NCBI RefSeq assembly: GCF_009177065.1
Contig: NZ_WEZF01000003.1
Span: 339,948-403,947, forward strand
Direction of reading: 5' to 3'
DNA: 64,000 bases
Source: Tautonia marina
Lineage (GTDB): Bacteria; Planctomycetota; Planctomycetia; Isosphaerales; Isosphaeraceae
The position numbers and the translations under genes were made by a program. Below, piece by piece: positions 15,979-22,573 of the stretch (within the stretch, counting starts at the first letter, position 1; every line of letters begins with the position of its first letter). The notes under the pieces were generated by a model, which saw only the letters and a list, made by a program, of their open reading frames with translations, did no database searches and was not told the origin of the DNA.

Positions 15979-16030
15979 CAAACGCCCCGCGGGGAGCGGC
16001 CTGACCGCCTCCTCGCGGGGCGTTTGTTCT
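15979..16030 (+). terminator. strong hairpin terminator after the S41 protease
   Basis: Thirteen-base perfect arms CAAACGCCCCGCG (15979-15991) and CGCGGGGCGTTTG (16014-16026) are followed by TTCTT. The inside also pairs (GGAGCGG with CCGCCTCC), giving a long rod-like hairpin. It separates the protease from the selenoprotein candidate. Confidence 0.75.
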
Positions 16031-16094: not shown

Positions 16095-16164
16095 GGAATC
16101 GCCGAGATCGTGGCCCCTCGGTCGCGGGTCGGGGGACGCGATCACTCCGCAGGAGACACCATAG

Positions 16165-17436
16165 ATGCTTGGAATTGATTCTCGACGAATCGCGATCGCG
16201 GGGGCTACCCTGGCCCTCATGATGGGGCCGAGCCTTCGGGCGTCGGAGCCGATCGATCCGGCGCGGTTCGAGACGCTTCATCGGACCATTCAGCCAAGGC
16301 CGGATGAGGAGCAATGGCTGCAGATTCCCTGGGAAACAAGTCTATGGGAAGCACGCCGCAAGGCCTCGGCCAAGGGGAAGCCGATTCTCCTTTGGGAGAT
16401 GGACGGCAACCCGCTCGGCTGCACCTGAAACAACGGGGTTCTGGGCCGTGCGCTCAGTTTCTCGGATCCGGAGATCATCCGGATGGCTTCGGAAGACTTC
16501 ATCCCGGTCGTCGGCGACGACTGGTATCAACGGCGACGACAGGACGCGGAAGGGGAATTTCTCCGCAAGGTCGCCGAGCAAGGCCCGCGAGGCGGCCAGG
16601 GTGGCGGCACGCTTCAGGGGATTTACACGCTGACACCTGATGGCACCTTGCTCGCCTACAAAAACGCCGGGCAGGCCCCGGACGTCATGAGAGAGGTGCT
16701 CAGGGGCGCACTCGACGCCTGGGAGCGTCTGCCGGAATCGCGCCGCCGCCCGGGGGCGATCGCCTCGGAGGAACTGGGAACGGTCGACGCGCAGTACGAC
16801 CGAACGCCCCCAGAGGACGGTTTGATCGTCAAGGTCTTCACCCGGGCGCTGGAACGAGACGACTCGGGGGCGAATCCCGATGTCTACTCCTGTGCCCCCG
16901 GTCGAGGAGGGGAGGCCGCTCGCGACCACCTCTGGTTGACTCGGTCGGACTGGCAGGCACTAATTCCCGAGGACCCGAAGCCTGGCCAGGTCGTTCCAAT
17001 TCCCGACCGGGTCGTGCAGCGGATCGTTCGTTTCCACCTGGTCGACAACACGCGAGGCGAACCCCCGTTCTGGAGCAACGAAGAGGTTCGGGAGGCGTCG
17101 ATGACCCTGACGGTCGAGGACGTGTCGCCCGATCGAGTGCGTCTCCGGCTCGTCGGCAGCGTGCTGCTCGCCACCTCAGCCGATGTGTCGCAGGCCAGTC
17201 GCGGGTATGACGCGAGCTTGCTCGGCGACATCGAGGTAGATCGCTCCTCCAAGTCAATCACCCGCGTTGACGTGGTGGCGCTGGGGGACCACTGGGGAGA
17301 AGGCCCGTATACCCGAGTCGCCCGGCCGGGACGGTCGCCGCTGGGAGTGGCGTTCACCCTTGTCGACGGTTCGAACCCGGCCGACCGGATCGCGCCTCAG
17401 GCAAGTCGGTACTTGCCGGGGTATCTCGATCCGTGA
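16165..17436 (+). CDS. candidate selenoprotein: secreted thioredoxin-like protein with in-frame TGA (Sec88)
   Basis: One frame runs from ATG 16165 (AGGAG about 10 bases upstream) to TGA 17434-17436 with a single internal TGA at 16426-16428. Read through, it gives 423 residues with Sec at position 88. An N-terminal signal peptide (residues 1-26) is followed by a thioredoxin-like domain. That domain has KASAKGKPILLWEMDGNP, then G85-C86-T87-U88-N-N at the place of the redox motif, and later GIYTLTPDGTLLAYKNAG. The region after the TGA (GVLGRALSFSDPEIIRMAS) continues the fold, so a frameshift is excluded. About 220 C-terminal residues form an unknown beta-rich domain. Cys-x-Sec would act as a redox pair. 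The alternative is a nonsense mutation or internal restart at 16483, which would lose the signal peptide and active site. Confidence 0.78.
16426..16428 (+). other. in-frame TGA, proposed selenocysteine codon
   Basis: The only stop codon interrupting an otherwise continuous 1,272-base frame. It follows Gly-Cys-Thr and precedes Asn-Asn-Gly, giving a Cys-x-Sec arrangement. Bases on both sides keep the codon pattern and hydrophobicity expected of a thioredoxin-like core. Confidence 0.72.
16435..16463 (+). promoter_or_regulatory. candidate bacterial SECIS hairpin
   Basis: The hairpin begins six bases after the TGA. A lower stem GGGG/TCTC (with two G-T pairs), a TT/TT internal loop, and an upper stem CTGGGC/GCTCAG (one G-T pair) close a five-base loop CGTGC. 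The apical loop starts 18 bases after the TGA, matching the spacing in E. coli fdhF. The loop lacks the exact GGTC of fdhF, but bacterial SECIS sequence is poorly conserved. Confidence 0.55.
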
Positions 17437-17502: not shown

Positions 17503-20490
17503 TCAGCCGCCGGAGAGGCTCTTGAGGTAGGTGATCAGGTCGGCCATCTGTTCGACGGAGACCTGCTCCTCAAGCCCCTCGGGCATGAGGGACTGGCCAG
17601 TCGAAACGAGCTCGTCGATCTGGTCGCGGGGGACAACGTCGGTGACCCCTTCAGCGCGCTTGAGCGTGATCGAAGTGGGGGTTTCCGAGGCGATCTGACC
17701 GCTGAGAATGCGGCCGTCGATCGTGGCGACGTTGTAGTTGAGGTACTGGGGAAGGACCTCAAGGTTCGGGTCGAGGATGTGGATGATCAGTCCCTCCTCG
17801 TCTCGGTTGGTGACGGTCGCCAGATCGGGGCCGACCTCGGCCCCGAACCCTTCGGCCTTGTGGCAGGTGGCGCAGGCAGCCCGGAAGACGATTTGGCCGC
17901 GATCGGTCGCGCCAGAGAGAGCAAGGGCCCCCTTGTAGCGATCAATCACCTCGGCTCGGGTGGACGAGCCGATGTTGGCCAGGAGCAGCTCGGCTCGAGC
18001 GCGGAGCTTGGCGTCCTGGGTTTGCAGGAGCTGATCCCGTCGGGCAGGATCGAGCTGACCGGCGGGAATGTCGCCGGCTTCGATCGCGTCGAGCAGGGCC
18101 ACGATCCGGTCGGGCCGGGCGAACAGAACCTCGGTGGCCTCGCGACGGGCAGCAGGACTGAGCGCCCGCCAGGCGGCGGTCAGGATCGGGCCGACCTCGG
18201 CTTCGGTCCGGTCGCCGAGTGTCCGCATGGCAGCAAGCTGGACCGGGGCCGGCTGTCGGCCGTCAATCAGCTCGGGAAGCACGTCAAGCGCCAGGTCGCT
18301 CGGAGCGAGGGCGAGCAGTCGCACAGCCTCGACCCGGTCAGAGCCTTCGGTCTCGCCCAGGGCGGTCTCGGCGGCGCGTTCGAAAACGGGAATGAGCGCG
18401 GTTCCGGCTTCTCCCGAAAGCAAGGTGGCGGCCGATCCTCCGGAGCGTCGGAGCCCTTCGCCGAGGCCGGTCAGAACAGCAAGGACGACCGAAGGCCGGG
18501 CATCGGGACCGGCGATCCGGGAGAGGAGGGCGTCAAGCGCTCCCCGATCGGCCGAGGCCCCGACGAGCAGGGCCAGTTCGCTGATCCAGGCCGAGGACTC
18601 GGGACGATCAAGCAGGGCGGGTCGATCGACGAGCGCGGTCAGCAACTGGTCGGCCCGCCCGGAGAGCGAACTCATCACGGCCGATCGGGTCCAGCGGTCG
18701 CTCGTGTCGCGTTCGACGATGGCGGCCAGAGCATCAATGGCGTCCGGCCCGTCCACGGCTCCGATCGAGAAGGCGGCCTGGAATCGCACCATCGAGTCGT
18801 CGTCGCTGGCCAGGGCGAGCAGGGCCTCGCGGAGGGCGGCATTGTCCGCCACGATCGGCTCGGCAAGCTTGGCCGAGGCTTCCCGAACGCGAGGCTCGTC
18901 GTCGGAGAGGGCGGGCAAGAGGTCATCAGCCGTCAGTTGACCGAGGGCGGCGAGGGTCCAGAGGGCGTGCATCCGTCCGAGGGCCGTCGGGCGAGCGGCG
19001 GCCAATGCGCGGAGGGCCGGGGCGACCTCAACGGCGTTGCGTTCGATCAGGAGCCGCTGGGCGGTTTCGCGCCACCAGGCGTCGGGATCGGCGAGCAAGG
19101 GAACAAGTTCACTCGAAGCAGCCCGGCTCAACCGAGGAGGCTCGCGGCGGGTGAAGCCGGAAGGGACAAGGTTGTACAGCCGGCCGCGATCGTAGCCGCT
19201 GGTCAGGTCGAGGTGCTTCTTGATCGGCTCGGGGATCGAGGCGGGGTGCTCGATCGTCTCGCGGTACATGTCCATGACCAGCAAGGTGCCGTCAGGAGTG
19301 TTGCGGAAACCGACCGGGCGGAACCAGTTGTCGGTCGAGGCGGCGAATTCGACGCCATCCTCGGCTCGGGTGGCCTTGAAGACCGCACCGTCGATCTCCA
19401 TCGTCTTGCGGTGAATGAGGTTGCCGCCGACATCGCCAATGAAGGCGTTTCCGAGGTACTCGGGGCCGTAGGCGGAGCCTCGGTAAACCGTCACGCCGGT
19501 GGCCGAGGTGAAATAGCCGGCGGGAACGAGTTCATTCGGGGGCAATCGGCGGCGGAACTCGGGGTCGGCGGCCCGCTGGCGGGTGCGAACGATCCGCCAG
19601 GGCTCGACCGGGCTGATCCGGAAGACCGGGGCCGCGGGGCCTTCGACGGCGATGTCGGCCACCGGGGTGCTGGCGGCGTAATCGGGGTTGCGGGCGAGGG
19701 AATCGGCCGGCAGGACAATCTGACGGATGTGATTGCTGTTGGAGCACGTGAAGCGGTGGCCCCAGTCGTCGAAGCTGTGGCCGTGCTGACCTCCTCCCGA
19801 AATCGGCTCGAAGACCGAAGCGTCGGGCTTGAAGCGGAAGTCGCGGCGGCCGAGGGGAATGGGGGGATCATTGGGCCGGGTGTGGTTGATCACCTGCTCG
19901 GCCCCGTTGGAGCTGGCAACGCCGTAGATCCAGCCGTCCGGTCCCCAGAGCAGGCCGTTGAGCAGGCCCTGAACATTGCTCAGGCCGAAGCCGGAGAAGA
20001 CGACCTTTCGCACGTCGGCCACACCGTCGCCGGTGGTGTCCTTGGCATAGATGATGTCGGGAGCGATCGTCAGATACACGCCGCCGTCGTAGGGAACGAT
20101 GCCGGTCGGCCAGGAGATGTCGTCAAGGAAGGTCGTGCCGGAGTCGTACACGCCGTCGCCGTCGGTGTCTTCGATCAGGCGAATGCGGCCGGTGGGTACG
20201 TCCTGAGGATACGGATAGCCACGCATCTCGACCACGTAGAGCCGACCATCGGCGTCGTAGCAAACGTCGACCGGGTCGGTCACGAGCGGCTCGACAGCCA
20301 CGGGGACCAGCGAGAAGCCGTTCTGGACCTGGAACGTGGCGAGGGCGTCGGCCGGTTCGGTCGCCGGAAGGCGAGGGAGTTCGCGGGCCAGATCGTCGTC
20401 GGTGTCTTCAGAGAAAATCGGCGCGGCCGAAACCGCGACGCAGAGCAAAAGGGCCGGGGAGAGGAGGGCCCAGCGTAACCGATGCTGCAT
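17503..20490 (-). CDS. PVC-type membrane-bound dehydrogenase with HEAT repeats and C-terminal heme domain
   Basis: A 995-residue exported protein. The start at 20490 gives a signal peptide (LRWALLSPALLLCVAVSAA) with GAGGGA upstream. The N-terminal 400 residues form a beta-propeller-like dehydrogenase domain of the planctomycete/verrucomicrobial type (PVDVCYDADGRLYVVEMRG, EDTDGDGVYD, GLLWGPDGWIYG). HEAT-like repeats follow at about 500-830. The C-terminal cytochrome domain has CATCH at residues 873-877 and a downstream LPQYLNYNV region. Such proteins are thought to oxidise sugars or alcohols in the periplasm and pass electrons to the heme; the substrate is unknown. It lies 127 bases downstream of an ABC permease gene. 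Confidence 0.93.
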   Translation of the reverse strand: MQHRLRWALLSPALLLCVAVSAAPIFSEDTDDDLARELPRLPATEPADALATFQVQNGFSLVPVAVEPLVTDPVDVCYDADGRLYVVEMRGYPYPQDVPTGRIRLIEDTDGDGVYDSGTTFLDDISWPTGIVPYDGGVYLTIAPDIIYAKDTTGDGVADVRKVVFSGFGLSNVQGLLNGLLWGPDGWIYGVASSNGAEQVINHTRPNDPPIPLGRRDFRFKPDASVFEPISGGGQHGHSFDDWGHRFTCSNSNHIRQIVLPADSLARNPDYAASTPVADIAVEGPAAPVFRISPVEPWRIVRTRQRAADPEFRRRLPPNELVPAGYFTSATGVTVYRGSAYGPEYLGNAFIGDVGGNLIHRKTMEIDGAVFKATRAEDGVEFAASTDNWFRPVGFRNTPDGTLLVMDMYRETIEHPASIPEPIKKHLDLTSGYDRGRLYNLVPSGFTRREPPRLSRAASSELVPLLADPDAWWRETAQRLLIERNAVEVAPALRALAAARPTALGRMHALWTLAALGQLTADDLLPALSDDEPRVREASAKLAEPIVADNAALREALLALASDDDSMVRFQAAFSIGAVDGPDAIDALAAIVERDTSDRWTRSAVMSSLSGRADQLLTALVDRPALLDRPESSAWISELALLVGASADRGALDALLSRIAGPDARPSVVLAVLTGLGEGLRRSGGSAATLLSGEAGTALIPVFERAAETALGETEGSDRVEAVRLLALAPSDLALDVLPELIDGRQPAPVQLAAMRTLGDRTEAEVGPILTAAWRALSPAARREATEVLFARPDRIVALLDAIEAGDIPAGQLDPARRDQLLQTQDAKLRARAELLLANIGSSTRAEVIDRYKGALALSGATDRGQIVFRAACATCHKAEGFGAEVGPDLATVTNRDEEGLIIHILDPNLEVLPQYLNYNVATIDGRILSGQIASETPTSITLKRAEGVTDVVPRDQIDELVSTGQSLMPEGLEEQVSVEQMADLITYLKSLSGG

Positions 20491-20617
20491 CGGAGATCCC
20501 TCGGAGGGTAAGAAGGCTCCCCCCGGCTTCAATTCTCTCGGAGAGCAGGCGGATGGAAGCCGGGGGGTCAACGGAAGGCGGGAGGCCGGAAGGCCCAGTC
20601 GGTGCGGCGGAAAGGCG

Positions 20618-22573
20618 CTACCCCTGGATCGCGTTGGTGCGTCCCAAGGCGATGTCGAAGTCACTGACCGCCGGGATCAGCATCGACAGCAGGGCAAACG
20701 AGTAGACCGCCAGGCTGACCAGGAAGGCCGCCCCGAAGTCTCCCTGCAGGATACTGATGATGCAATAGAAGCTCCAGAAGGGGGTGAGCAAGGCCACCAG
20801 TCCGATCGCCGGTGACGGATTCTTCGCGCCGAGCGATCCGTACAGCGCCACGCTGCCTGCCCCGATGAAAACCAGGAAGCTGAGCAACTGCCGGGCGAAT
20901 TCCTGACGGCTCTGAATAATCAGGGCCGCGCAGAACAAAATGCCGAGCATCAGGAAAAAGATCGTTCCCAGGCTGTTCGCCACCGCCTGCCGGCTGTTCG
21001 TATAGGTAATCGCCGCATGCAGGCCGAGCATCGCCGAGAAGTGGACCAGCACGGCAAAGTTGATCAGAACGAAGATGAGCGAATCGAGCTTCATGTAACC
21101 CATCGCCCAGATGCCGATGGCCAGGACAATGGGCAGGAGAATCATCTCCTTCGCGTTGTAGAGCACGCCGTAGAGCTTCCCGTAGATGAACTGCTGCGGC
21201 GACAGCTCGGTGACGAGCAGCAAGTCGAGGGCTCCGGTGTCGCGCTCACTCGTCAGGGCTGTCACCCCCTGGGCGTTGACGAGAATCAGGCTGAGCACGG
21301 CCAGCAAGGCCGGAATGGCCGCCTTGGCACCGTCCCAGGGACCGGAGCCAGGACCGATGCTGCCGAAATAGGCCACCACTCCCAGCGCGAACGCCAGAAC
21401 ATAGGCTCCCTTGATGATCAGGGGCTTGGTGCCGTAGGCTCGGGTTCGAAGCTCTCGCCAGAGGATCGGATTCGACCAGACTTCTCGGTACGGGCGGAAT
21501 TTCCGAACAACCCGGCGATGCGTGCGGCGAGGGACGTGCAGGCCGGTCGTCTCTCGACGAACGTAAGTCTCGGCTTCGGGGGCCTCGACCGACCCCGCGA
21601 CCCCCAGGCCGGGCGATTCGGGACGATCACCGCGCGCTTCGGACACCTGCTCAGCGATGACCGCACTGACGGCCGCGGGGGAGCGGCGGGCGGACTCGGC
21701 CACGGCCTGGGCCTCGTCCACCTCGTAAAGCTGCTCGACCACCTCGGTCTCGCCTTCCTCGTCTCCTTCACGCTGCTCCCGAGGCTCGTTCTTTCCGGGG
21801 TTCCAGACGCGGAGCTTGATGATCGAGGCCAGCACAATGAGCGCGGCGGCCCCCAGATAGATGCCGGTGAAGGCCAGGCTCGAACCACCGAGCGGTCCGA
21901 CCAAGCGTTCGGGACGGGGACGGATCGCCTCGGCAATGGCCTGAAACGGGCTCAGGGCCGAGGTAATCAGCGCGGTCTCGGGAAGAATGCGGGCCGCGGC
22001 TTCGCCCAGGATCAACACGAGCACGACGAGCAAGACGGTCAGAGCGATTGACTGGAAGGTCCGATCACGCCAGAGGGCGACGATCATCCCCAGCGCCCCG
22101 CCGAAAAAGCCGGCGGCGAACGTGACAAGAAACACGTCGATCACCTGACCAAACGAGACGCCACCGAGCAGGAGGCAGAGGCAAAAGACCGGCAACGACG
22201 TGAGCAGTAACGTGAGAATTTGCAGCAAACTGGCGACCAGCTTGCCGACGACGATCTCAATGTCGCGGAGGTCGGTCATCAGCAGAAGCACGAACGTCCG
22301 CCGATCCTTTTCGTGAGCCACGGCCGTGGCGGCGGCGATCGGGGCAAAAAAGAGCATCAACGTCAGTTGAAGATAGGCAAAGAATGAGAACAGGATGGCC
22401 CCGAATCGGGAAAGGATACTCAGCGCGTTGCCTTCGTCCCAGCCGACCAGGACCTGCCAGACCGTCAGCATAACGATCAGCAAGCCGCCGGCATAAGACG
22501 CCCGGGCGGCATAGTAGCGCGGCGGCCGGGGAGCGGTCAGCAGTTCTCGGGCGATGATGGGTCCGGCGAACAA
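20618..22573 (-). CDS. ABC-2 type transporter permease protein
   Basis: A 651-residue integral membrane protein with about twelve hydrophobic segments in two halves. A polar, acidic linker separates them (about residues 265-375, rich in Glu). The first half has FFAPIAAATAVAHEKDRRTFVLLLMTDL and the second has ALTSERDTGALDLLLVTEL, both carrying the ABC-2 permease pattern in which an E-K/R-D segment precedes T-x-x-LLL-T. The initiator is TTG, chosen because of a GAGGAGG eight bases upstream and the family-like MFAGPIIARELL start. No ATPase subunit is adjacent, so the nucleotide-binding partner must be encoded elsewhere. Confidence 0.88.
   Translation of the reverse strand: MFAGPIIARELLTAPRPPRYYAARASYAGGLLIVMLTVWQVLVGWDEGNALSILSRFGAILFSFFAYLQLTLMLFFAPIAAATAVAHEKDRRTFVLLLMTDLRDIEIVVGKLVASLLQILTLLLTSLPVFCLCLLLGGVSFGQVIDVFLVTFAAGFFGGALGMIVALWRDRTFQSIALTVLLVVLVLILGEAAARILPETALITSALSPFQAIAEAIRPRPERLVGPLGGSSLAFTGIYLGAAALIVLASIIKLRVWNPGKNEPREQREGDEEGETEVVEQLYEVDEAQAVAESARRSPAAVSAVIAEQVSEARGDRPESPGLGVAGSVEAPEAETYVRRETTGLHVPRRTHRRVVRKFRPYREVWSNPILWRELRTRAYGTKPLIIKGAYVLAFALGVVAYFGSIGPGSGPWDGAKAAIPALLAVLSLILVNAQGVTALTSERDTGALDLLLVTELSPQQFIYGKLYGVLYNAKEMILLPIVLAIGIWAMGYMKLDSLIFVLINFAVLVHFSAMLGLHAAITYTNSRQAVANSLGTIFFLMLGILFCAALIIQSRQEFARQLLSFLVFIGAGSVALYGSLGAKNPSPAIGLVALLTPFWSFYCIISILQGDFGAAFLVSLAVYSFALLSMLIPAVSDFDIALGRTNAIQG

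Follow-up and report, generated by a model that had tools for sequence, protein, structure and literature searches.

The window, by which we mean the whole 64,000-nucleotide stretch of DNA analysed here (G000:C3:339948-403947 of the source genome), carries on its forward strand a reading frame at 16165-17436 with exactly one internal TGA. This TGA is codon 88 and stands in the context GCT-U-NNG, an arrangement reported in a first-pass annotation of the same DNA and confirmed on the window sequence. The gene begins with the ATG at 16165. Because an in-frame TAG directly precedes this codon (16162-16164, read by eye), the start is well fixed, and a ribosome-site-like AGGAGA string is found ahead of it at 16151-16156 (also read by eye). 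A gene for a tail-specific protease lies upstream, and a DUF7133/cytochrome c gene lies downstream on the other strand. An inverted repeat, AAACGCCCCGCG...CGCGGGGCGTTT, located at 15980-16023 between the protease and selenoprotein genes, resembles a terminator by eye, which suggests that the selenoprotein gene may have its own promoter. ARAGORN detected no tRNA in the window. The features of the locus are as follows.

16165..17436, + strand: predicted complete selenoprotein gene, 423 codons/residues, with Sec predicted at codon 88 and a terminal TGA stop at 17434-17436
16165..16242, + strand: signal-peptide-like N terminus, residues 1-26 (MLGIDSRRIAIAGATLALMMGPSLRA), assigned by eye; helix at residues 6-19 in the model
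16309..16740, + strand: predicted thioredoxin-fold domain, residues 49-192, from the predicted model
16420..16422, + strand: Cys86, predicted Sec partner, Cys in 133 of 161 Sec copies
16426..16428, + strand: in-frame TGA, predicted selenocysteine 88, from the homologue column and a weak alignment to a Cys of 3ira_A
16434..16464, + strand: predicted bacterial SECIS (bSECIS) hairpin, from its fold and from conservation against synonymous shuffles
16434-16438/16460-16464, + strand: bSECIS outer stem
16441-16446/16452-16457, + strand: bSECIS inner stem, 6 bp
16447-16451, + strand: bSECIS apical loop CGUGC, with 18 nt between UGA and loop
16447..16449, + strand: CGT codon for Arg95, within the apical loop; 154 of 157 Sec copies have Arg there
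16786..17433, + strand: C-terminal domain, residues 208-423 (216 residues), without a clear PDB match
17506-20664, - strand: gene for a DUF7133 protein with HEAT repeats and cytochrome c, adjoining the selenoprotein gene

ORF calling on the window yields one protein of 87 residues (16165-16428) and another of 317 residues (16483-17436), exactly the split anticipated by the first-pass annotation, and the expected division is also present in the protein databases. A search with the read-through protein returned 1360 proteins, and in every one of the 120 listed the alignment starts at residue 92 or beyond, past the TGA. Tautonia sp. JC769 (87%) and T. rosea (83%) are among the matches listed, where named entries are hypothetical proteins. 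Conversely, the N-terminal piece retrieved 456 short proteins, and the 120 listed all end exactly at the UGA site, with the final residues GCT (85), GCV (32), SCV (1), VCV (1) or ACT (1). No full-length database protein across residues 44-105 was found, in a search whose reach is limited, given that Cys forms of the family exist; it gave 3 candidates, and none of them scored. One database protein (P0005, 533 aa) has most of the family's C-terminal half repeated in tandem, as judged by eye.

Standard annotation, both in the window and in the databases, therefore treats the UGA as a plain stop, which would leave either two genes or a broken gene. We consider this reading very improbable. The same-genus orthologue (L026) keeps the TGA, with rough dN/dS values of 0.17 before it and 0.11 after it, and 161 of 178 distinct homologous sites also read TGA at this column. 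Given its retention within the genus, the purifying selection on both sides and this count, the internal TGA is not due to chance. A plain stop is also at odds with the RNA-level selection described below, which is seen in TGA copies and is absent from TGA-free ones. Moreover, neither product would hold the whole predicted thioredoxin domain, because residues 49-192 span the UGA site. The frame at 16165-17436 very likely represents one selenoprotein gene, whose product is split at the UGA in protein databases.

Family members were sought in overlapping sets of genomes. Among relatives, 8 of 59 genomes, including that of the window, contain a match. The phylum search gave matches in 182 of 392 sampled genomes at E ≤ 1e-3 and in 94 at E ≤ 1e-20; 87 of these 94 carry a TGA copy, and the TGA was seen in the DNA at the column for all 87. 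The class search identified matches in 107 of 397 genomes at E ≤ 1e-8. Tautonia belongs to the Isosphaeraceae of Planctomycetota, and TGA is found at the column also in records titled Roseibacillus (L023; Verrucomicrobiota) and Kiritimatiellia (L024; Kiritimatiellota). In the phylum of the Roseibacillus record, 6 of 337 genomes match: two have TGA members (L194, which is the same place as L023, and L195, whose site reads GETUNNG) and four have only generic thioredoxin-like proteins. The weak matches L196-L199 and L201 from this phylum were rejected as family members, being ordinary CxxC thioredoxin-like proteins. A further weak and partial match in the genome of the Roseibacillus record (L200, G438:C11:18387-18620) reads EPCGLEG at the site and is perhaps a distant Sec-free relative.

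Several genomes of the phylum carry paralogues. Tandem or near-tandem arrangements occur at G099:C42:50019-52224, at G043:C1:547209-554340 and on G211:C321, with the G043 and G211 examples pairing a Sec copy with a Sec-free one. Two family copies (L242, G1002:C356:2240-3430; L243, G864:C76:46942-47919) contain two in-frame stops, in one case two TGAs and in the other a TGA and a TAG. The extra stop could reflect a second Sec, decay or a sequencing error.

The first-pass annotation had named homologues with TGA or Cys at the same column as support for its reading, and such homologues were found, with Cys rare. The final set was restricted to domains with E ≤ 1e-12, so that weaker matches such as L200 do not enter the count; duplicates and sites cut by contig ends were dropped, and 12 domains lacking the column were set aside. 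The resulting 178 distinct sites, which are not a random sample since Sec-free rows were fetched deliberately and weak rows left out, comprise 161 U, 7 Ser, 3 Asp, 3 Cys, 2 Pro, 1 Arg and 1 Gly, with no Trp. In our judgement, one of the Cys calls (L237) is a Cys at position -1 beside an Asp, and the count then becomes 161 U, 2 Cys and 15 other. The true Cys forms are L233 (GHPLGCSCINGV, with GCSC at the site) and L232 (GHPLGSACGNG, with GSAC), from genomes G945 and G949; in G945 a Cys copy is the sole match at E ≤ 1e-8. An earlier and smaller set, duplicates included (n=140), had contained 130 U, 6 Ser, 2 Asp, 1 Arg and 1 Pro; the absence of any Cys homologue that it implied was refuted by these two sequences from the larger survey. 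The family thus exhibits a conserved UGA together with some Cys at the same column, the combination looked for in a selenoprotein.

Changes at the column recur on trees built with the site masked. A tree of 129 rows requires 6 changes between Sec and other residues, all 6 forced by strongly supported branches, and a larger FastTree tree of 169 rows requires 10. Of the 17 Sec-free copies, 15 carry Ser, Asp, Pro, Gly or Arg at the column. Neighbouring Cys residues are less regular. The Cys-x-Sec motif proposed in the first-pass annotation is present in most Sec copies, with Cys at -2 in 133 of 161, but it is not universal: 14 copies have Cys at -1 and another 14 have it at neither position, which means that the Cys-x-Sec pairing is not fixed across the family. 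Judging by these alignments, the predicted Sec is the fixed residue of the family and the partner Cys varies.

The components for selenocysteine insertion, whose presence had been suggested as a check, are found in the genome of the window. Matches over the cut-offs were obtained for selA (C3:315690-317057, 521.9 bits), selB (C3:317135-319027, 367.2 bits) and selD (L018, G000:C26:63918-64850, 350.5 bits), and a tRNA-Sec with anticodon TCA is located at C4:151184-151279 (66.5 bits). The adjacent selA and selB genes (G000:C3:315690-319027) are on the same contig as the window, about 21 kb before its first base. The selD gene has one in-frame TGA and is itself a predicted selenoprotein gene with a frame reading CAGUAGK, which fits the UxxK motif given for selenophosphate synthetase in Table 1 of PMC13188914. 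Another match in this genome, L002, also exceeds the tRNA-Sec cut-off (50.7 bits) and is a tRNA-Ser. Because of this match, and because the tRNA-Sec and selB models match in 14 of 14 control genomes as well, mostly below the cut-offs, tRNA-Sec scores near 50 bits were not accepted.

Across the phylum, 83 of the 87 genomes that contain a strong TGA copy have selA over the cut-off, versus 156 of the 305 others (Fisher p 2.4e-16, a value that ignores kinship and is inflated by relatedness among the genes). The four exceptions (G262, G312, G327 and G225) all have selB over the cut-off; their tRNA-Sec scores are near 69 bits in G312 and G225, 49.0 bits in G327 and below the cut-off in G262. The genomes that hold L022, L023 and L024 have selA over the cut-off in all three cases. 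Three genomes that carry only TGA-free copies (G151, G223 and G343, with completeness of 86, 86 and 61%) show no selA match, and neither selB nor tRNA-Sec is ever over the cut-off. There are also genomes with selA in which every match at E ≤ 1e-20 is TGA-free (G356, G421 and G172, the match in G172 lacking the site), and G137 has a single family match without the site together with selB and tRNA-Sec and no selA match. These cases indicate that the link runs one way: TGA copies need the machinery, and not the reverse.

Two homologues with Cys at the column could be taken to mean that the UGA is read as Cys, Trp or a near-cognate amino acid without involvement of selenium. The presence of tRNA-Sec, selA, selB and selD in the genome, the association of TGA copies with selA and the lack of Trp among the 178 sites all argue against such a reading, as do the use of TGA as the gene's own terminal stop and a conserved bSECIS that is missing from TGA-free copies. 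We therefore assign it only a slight chance.

The published bSECIS model (PMC13188914, section 5) calls for an apical loop of 3-9 nt with G in one of the first two places, a stem of 4-16 bp, a distance of 16-37 nt from the UGA and an MFE ≤ -7.5. The RNA of the window agrees with this model, having the CGUGC loop, 6 bp, 18 nt and -17 kcal/mol over 53 nt. However, 30 of 200 dinucleotide shuffles of these 53 nt fold equally well (z -0.93), and thus the fold of this hairpin alone is no proof. Likewise, a hairpin satisfying the stem and loop rules without the energy term occurs in 122 of 122 genes, so the bare model is not discriminating. RNAalifold gave no consensus structure for 122 ungapped sequences. 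A generic folding-energy test of 122 genes against synonymous shuffles was also weak (mean z -0.17 at the site and -0.27 at 45 codons upstream), which led us to switch to a register-specific test.

In Sec copies, the mean number of paired positions in the stem is 4.73 of 6, compared to 3.56 in synonymous shuffles, and none of 300 shuffles reaches the observed value; the shuffle test, like the Fisher test, is inflated by relatedness among the genes. For a non-redundant set of 52 genes (<75% identity) the values are 4.25 and 3.26, again with none of 300 shuffles reaching the former. Register 21 scored highest of those tried, with z 13.2 in the first gene set (next 8.0) and z 6.5 in 44 non-redundant genes (next 4.0). 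Codon choice for Arg95, in the apical loop, departs from that of the other Arg codons in the same genes. Among 157 Sec copies (4 of the 161 were dropped as too short or containing N), CGC is rarer than expected (7 versus 78.3), CGT is commoner (72 versus 15.4), AGA is observed 19 times versus 3.5 and CGG 42 times versus 36.7.

The 17 TGA-free copies do not exhibit these features. Their stem pairing averages 2.41 versus 2.62 in shuffles, 274 of 300 of which reach the observed value, and the codon at the Arg95 position is CGC in 10 of 14. In copies that lack the TGA, the bSECIS signal is thus missing too, an internal control that we regard as the strongest individual line of evidence. Support for Sec decoding is about as good as sequence alone allows, and we regard it as nearly certain that the UGA would be decoded as Sec.

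The predicted structure model contains a thioredoxin domain with the beta-alpha-beta-alpha-beta-beta-alpha order of the superfamily, in agreement with the fold suggested by the first-pass annotation. Foldseek returned no match at E ≤ 0.001. A weak alignment (E 0.033) places Sec88 at the N-terminal Cys of CHWC in 3ira_A and Gly91 where the usual resolving Cys stands. The active site reads neither CxxC nor UxxC, and instead has UNNG with a Cys at -2. The loop of residues 87-94 has pLDDT < 50 in the model. The protein is predicted to be exported, and from the modelled fold and the position of the residue a redox role is likely. We hold with good confidence the combined view that UGA specifies Sec and that the protein functions as a thioredoxin-fold redox enzyme.

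A plausible sequence of events can be outlined. SelB with tRNA-Sec would be recruited by the bSECIS, whose outer stem begins five bases past the UGA, a step strongly supported by the comparative data. The protein is then predicted to leave the cytoplasm via its signal peptide. In the model, Sec88 would stand where a thioredoxin active site has its nucleophilic, N-terminal residue, with Gly91 replacing the resolving Cys. Presumably, Sec88 attacks a disulfide, a peroxide or another oxidised substrate, and resolution might proceed through a selenenylsulfide with Cys86, or through an outside thiol in members that lack that Cys. The C-terminal domain may hold the substrate or a partner.

Sec-free copies present another side of the family. 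Eight of the 17, from four genomes (G249, G949, G981 and G343), are fused to signalling proteins, and with only four genomes involved they may stem from a smaller number of independent events. In six cases (L072, L234, L235, L236, L237 and L238) the copy forms the C-terminal part of a sigma-70 family protein, which has both ECF-like regions, 2 and 4, or within the DNA examined only region 4. The Cys form L232 is the C-terminal part of a Ser/Thr kinase (847 aa in L252), and L065 is that of a FecR protein (659 aa in L258). Fused Sec-free loci, in which the two-domain body makes up the C-terminus, are listed here.

L252, 372-2912, - strand: fused Sec-free locus
L253, 1836-3962, + strand: fused Sec-free locus
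L254, 1744-3900, + strand: fused Sec-free locus
L258, 3558-5534, + strand: fused Sec-free locus
L072: fused Sec-free locus

A start codon precedes the domain in 157 of the 161 Sec copies in the DNA examined, and 15 have N-terminal extensions > 120 aa, none of which matches a sigma factor, kinase or FecR domain. One locus of the Sec copy set (L114) has a Kelch match. Signalling fusions are thus found in 8 of 17 Sec-free versus 0 of 161 Sec copies (Fisher p 1.1e-9, kinship ignored).

As these signalling copies indicate, the predicted fold is usable without Sec, and the domain can serve signalling. This raises the alternative that Sec is inserted and the protein nevertheless acts mainly as a sensor or binding protein, for redox state, a metal or selenium, and not as an enzyme. 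The fusions speak for such a role, and in G249 (L072, C104) a sigma-fused Sec-free copy is followed directly by a separate Sec copy. However, none of the 15 long extensions of Sec copies matches sigma, kinase or FecR, no gene for such a protein is present among the 8 ORFs scanned around the gene of the window, and Sec at the nucleophile position suggests turnover. We judge a primarily sensory role for the Sec protein to be unlikely, at roughly one chance in nine, and favour the redox enzyme.

Gene neighbourhoods were compared between the window and 20 other stretches, each of 10-18 kb, for the 25 largest clusters. No resolved cluster beyond the family itself occurs in more than 3 of the 21 stretches, and no operon was seen. 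A DUF7133/cytochrome c gene accompanies the family gene in the window and at L172 and L179 (3 of 21, with two from a single genus), and L174, L180 and L181 share an unannotated neighbour of some 680 aa; the distance to the family gene varies for both. One cluster with 8 loci consists of long frames that are at least partly antisense to the family gene.

Comparison with known families revealed no assignment for the protein of the window. No Pfam model matches it at E ≤ 1, so that it falls short of the gathering score of Thioredoxin_7 (PF13899), and NCBIfam release 20.0 gave no match, including NF041382/NF041383 and NF041199. The closest thioredoxin-like systems are Thioredoxin_7, DUF255 (Thioredox_DsbH), ERp18-AGR and the DsbD C-terminal domain. 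Compared to these, the present family replaces the first Cys by Sec and the second by Gly, has a Cys two residues earlier and carries an extra C-terminal domain; PF13899 weakly matches 2 of 10 family members (best E 0.0042). VPGUxxT (NF041382, NF041383), of the named families the nearest, likewise consists of thioredoxin-like predicted selenoproteins, and NF041383 weakly matches 3 of 10 members (best E 0.00029). The motif here is GCTUNNG, however, and the relatives' scores, that of the best match excepted, lie near 12 bits, far below the cut-offs of 275 and 350. Table 1 of PMC13188914 gives CxxU or CxU motifs for the Trx7/PDZ selenoprotein (NF041199) and thioredoxin-like Sec.1 (PF13192). One of 10 members matched NF041199 (E 0.24, 10.3 bits versus 300) with no PDZ match, and the window's protein has no match to PF13192 (CxU) at E ≤ 1. 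Selenophosphate synthetase, glutathione peroxidase-like and other bacterial selenoproteins share the same route of UGA, bSECIS, SelABD and tRNA-Sec, but are unrelated proteins, and Cys forms are rare here (2 of 178 sites).

Our searches of the published literature listed no description of this planctomycete family. PMC13188914, an inventory from 2026 that covers 119 prokaryotic families, has no fitting row in a table that gives names and motifs, by which it was compared, and no sequences. The family is not described in the portion of PMC9312934 consulted, nor in that of PMC4807772, which reports selenoproteins in planctomycetes and whose candidate table lay outside the comparison. According to the portion of the deep-Sep report consulted (PMC12013277), a selenoprotein that has no Cys homologue may be lost in filtering, and Cys homologues now seem to exist for all known selenoproteins. 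Published pipelines, as far as these accounts go, lean on Cys/Sec pairs, and those that need Cys homologues could miss a family of this type. The rarity of its Cys forms, at 2 of 178 sites, could explain its absence from catalogues.

A broader and tentative reading connects the two kinds of copies. The selenoprotein is possibly, although we would not expect it, the catalytic Sec arm of extracytoplasmic signalling, whose whole two-domain body, stripped of Sec and SECIS, was repeatedly joined to ECF sigma factors, to a kinase and to FecR as a sensor. Under the same reading, and just as doubtfully, the transferred sensor body might detect the same ligand or redox partner as the Sec enzyme, phylum-wide. 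If this were true, the family line would depend on Sec almost throughout, and loss of Sec would usually mean a new job for the protein and not a switch to Cys.

If the selenoprotein assignment is correct, the family would be a large uncharacterised addition to the bacterial selenoproteins, with a strong TGA copy in 87 of the 392 genomes sampled from the phylum, and the listed database proteins would be unnamed pieces of it, cut off at the UGA. It would also raise testable questions concerning what Sec can do beyond Cys, and the route by which a selenoprotein domain may become a sensor.
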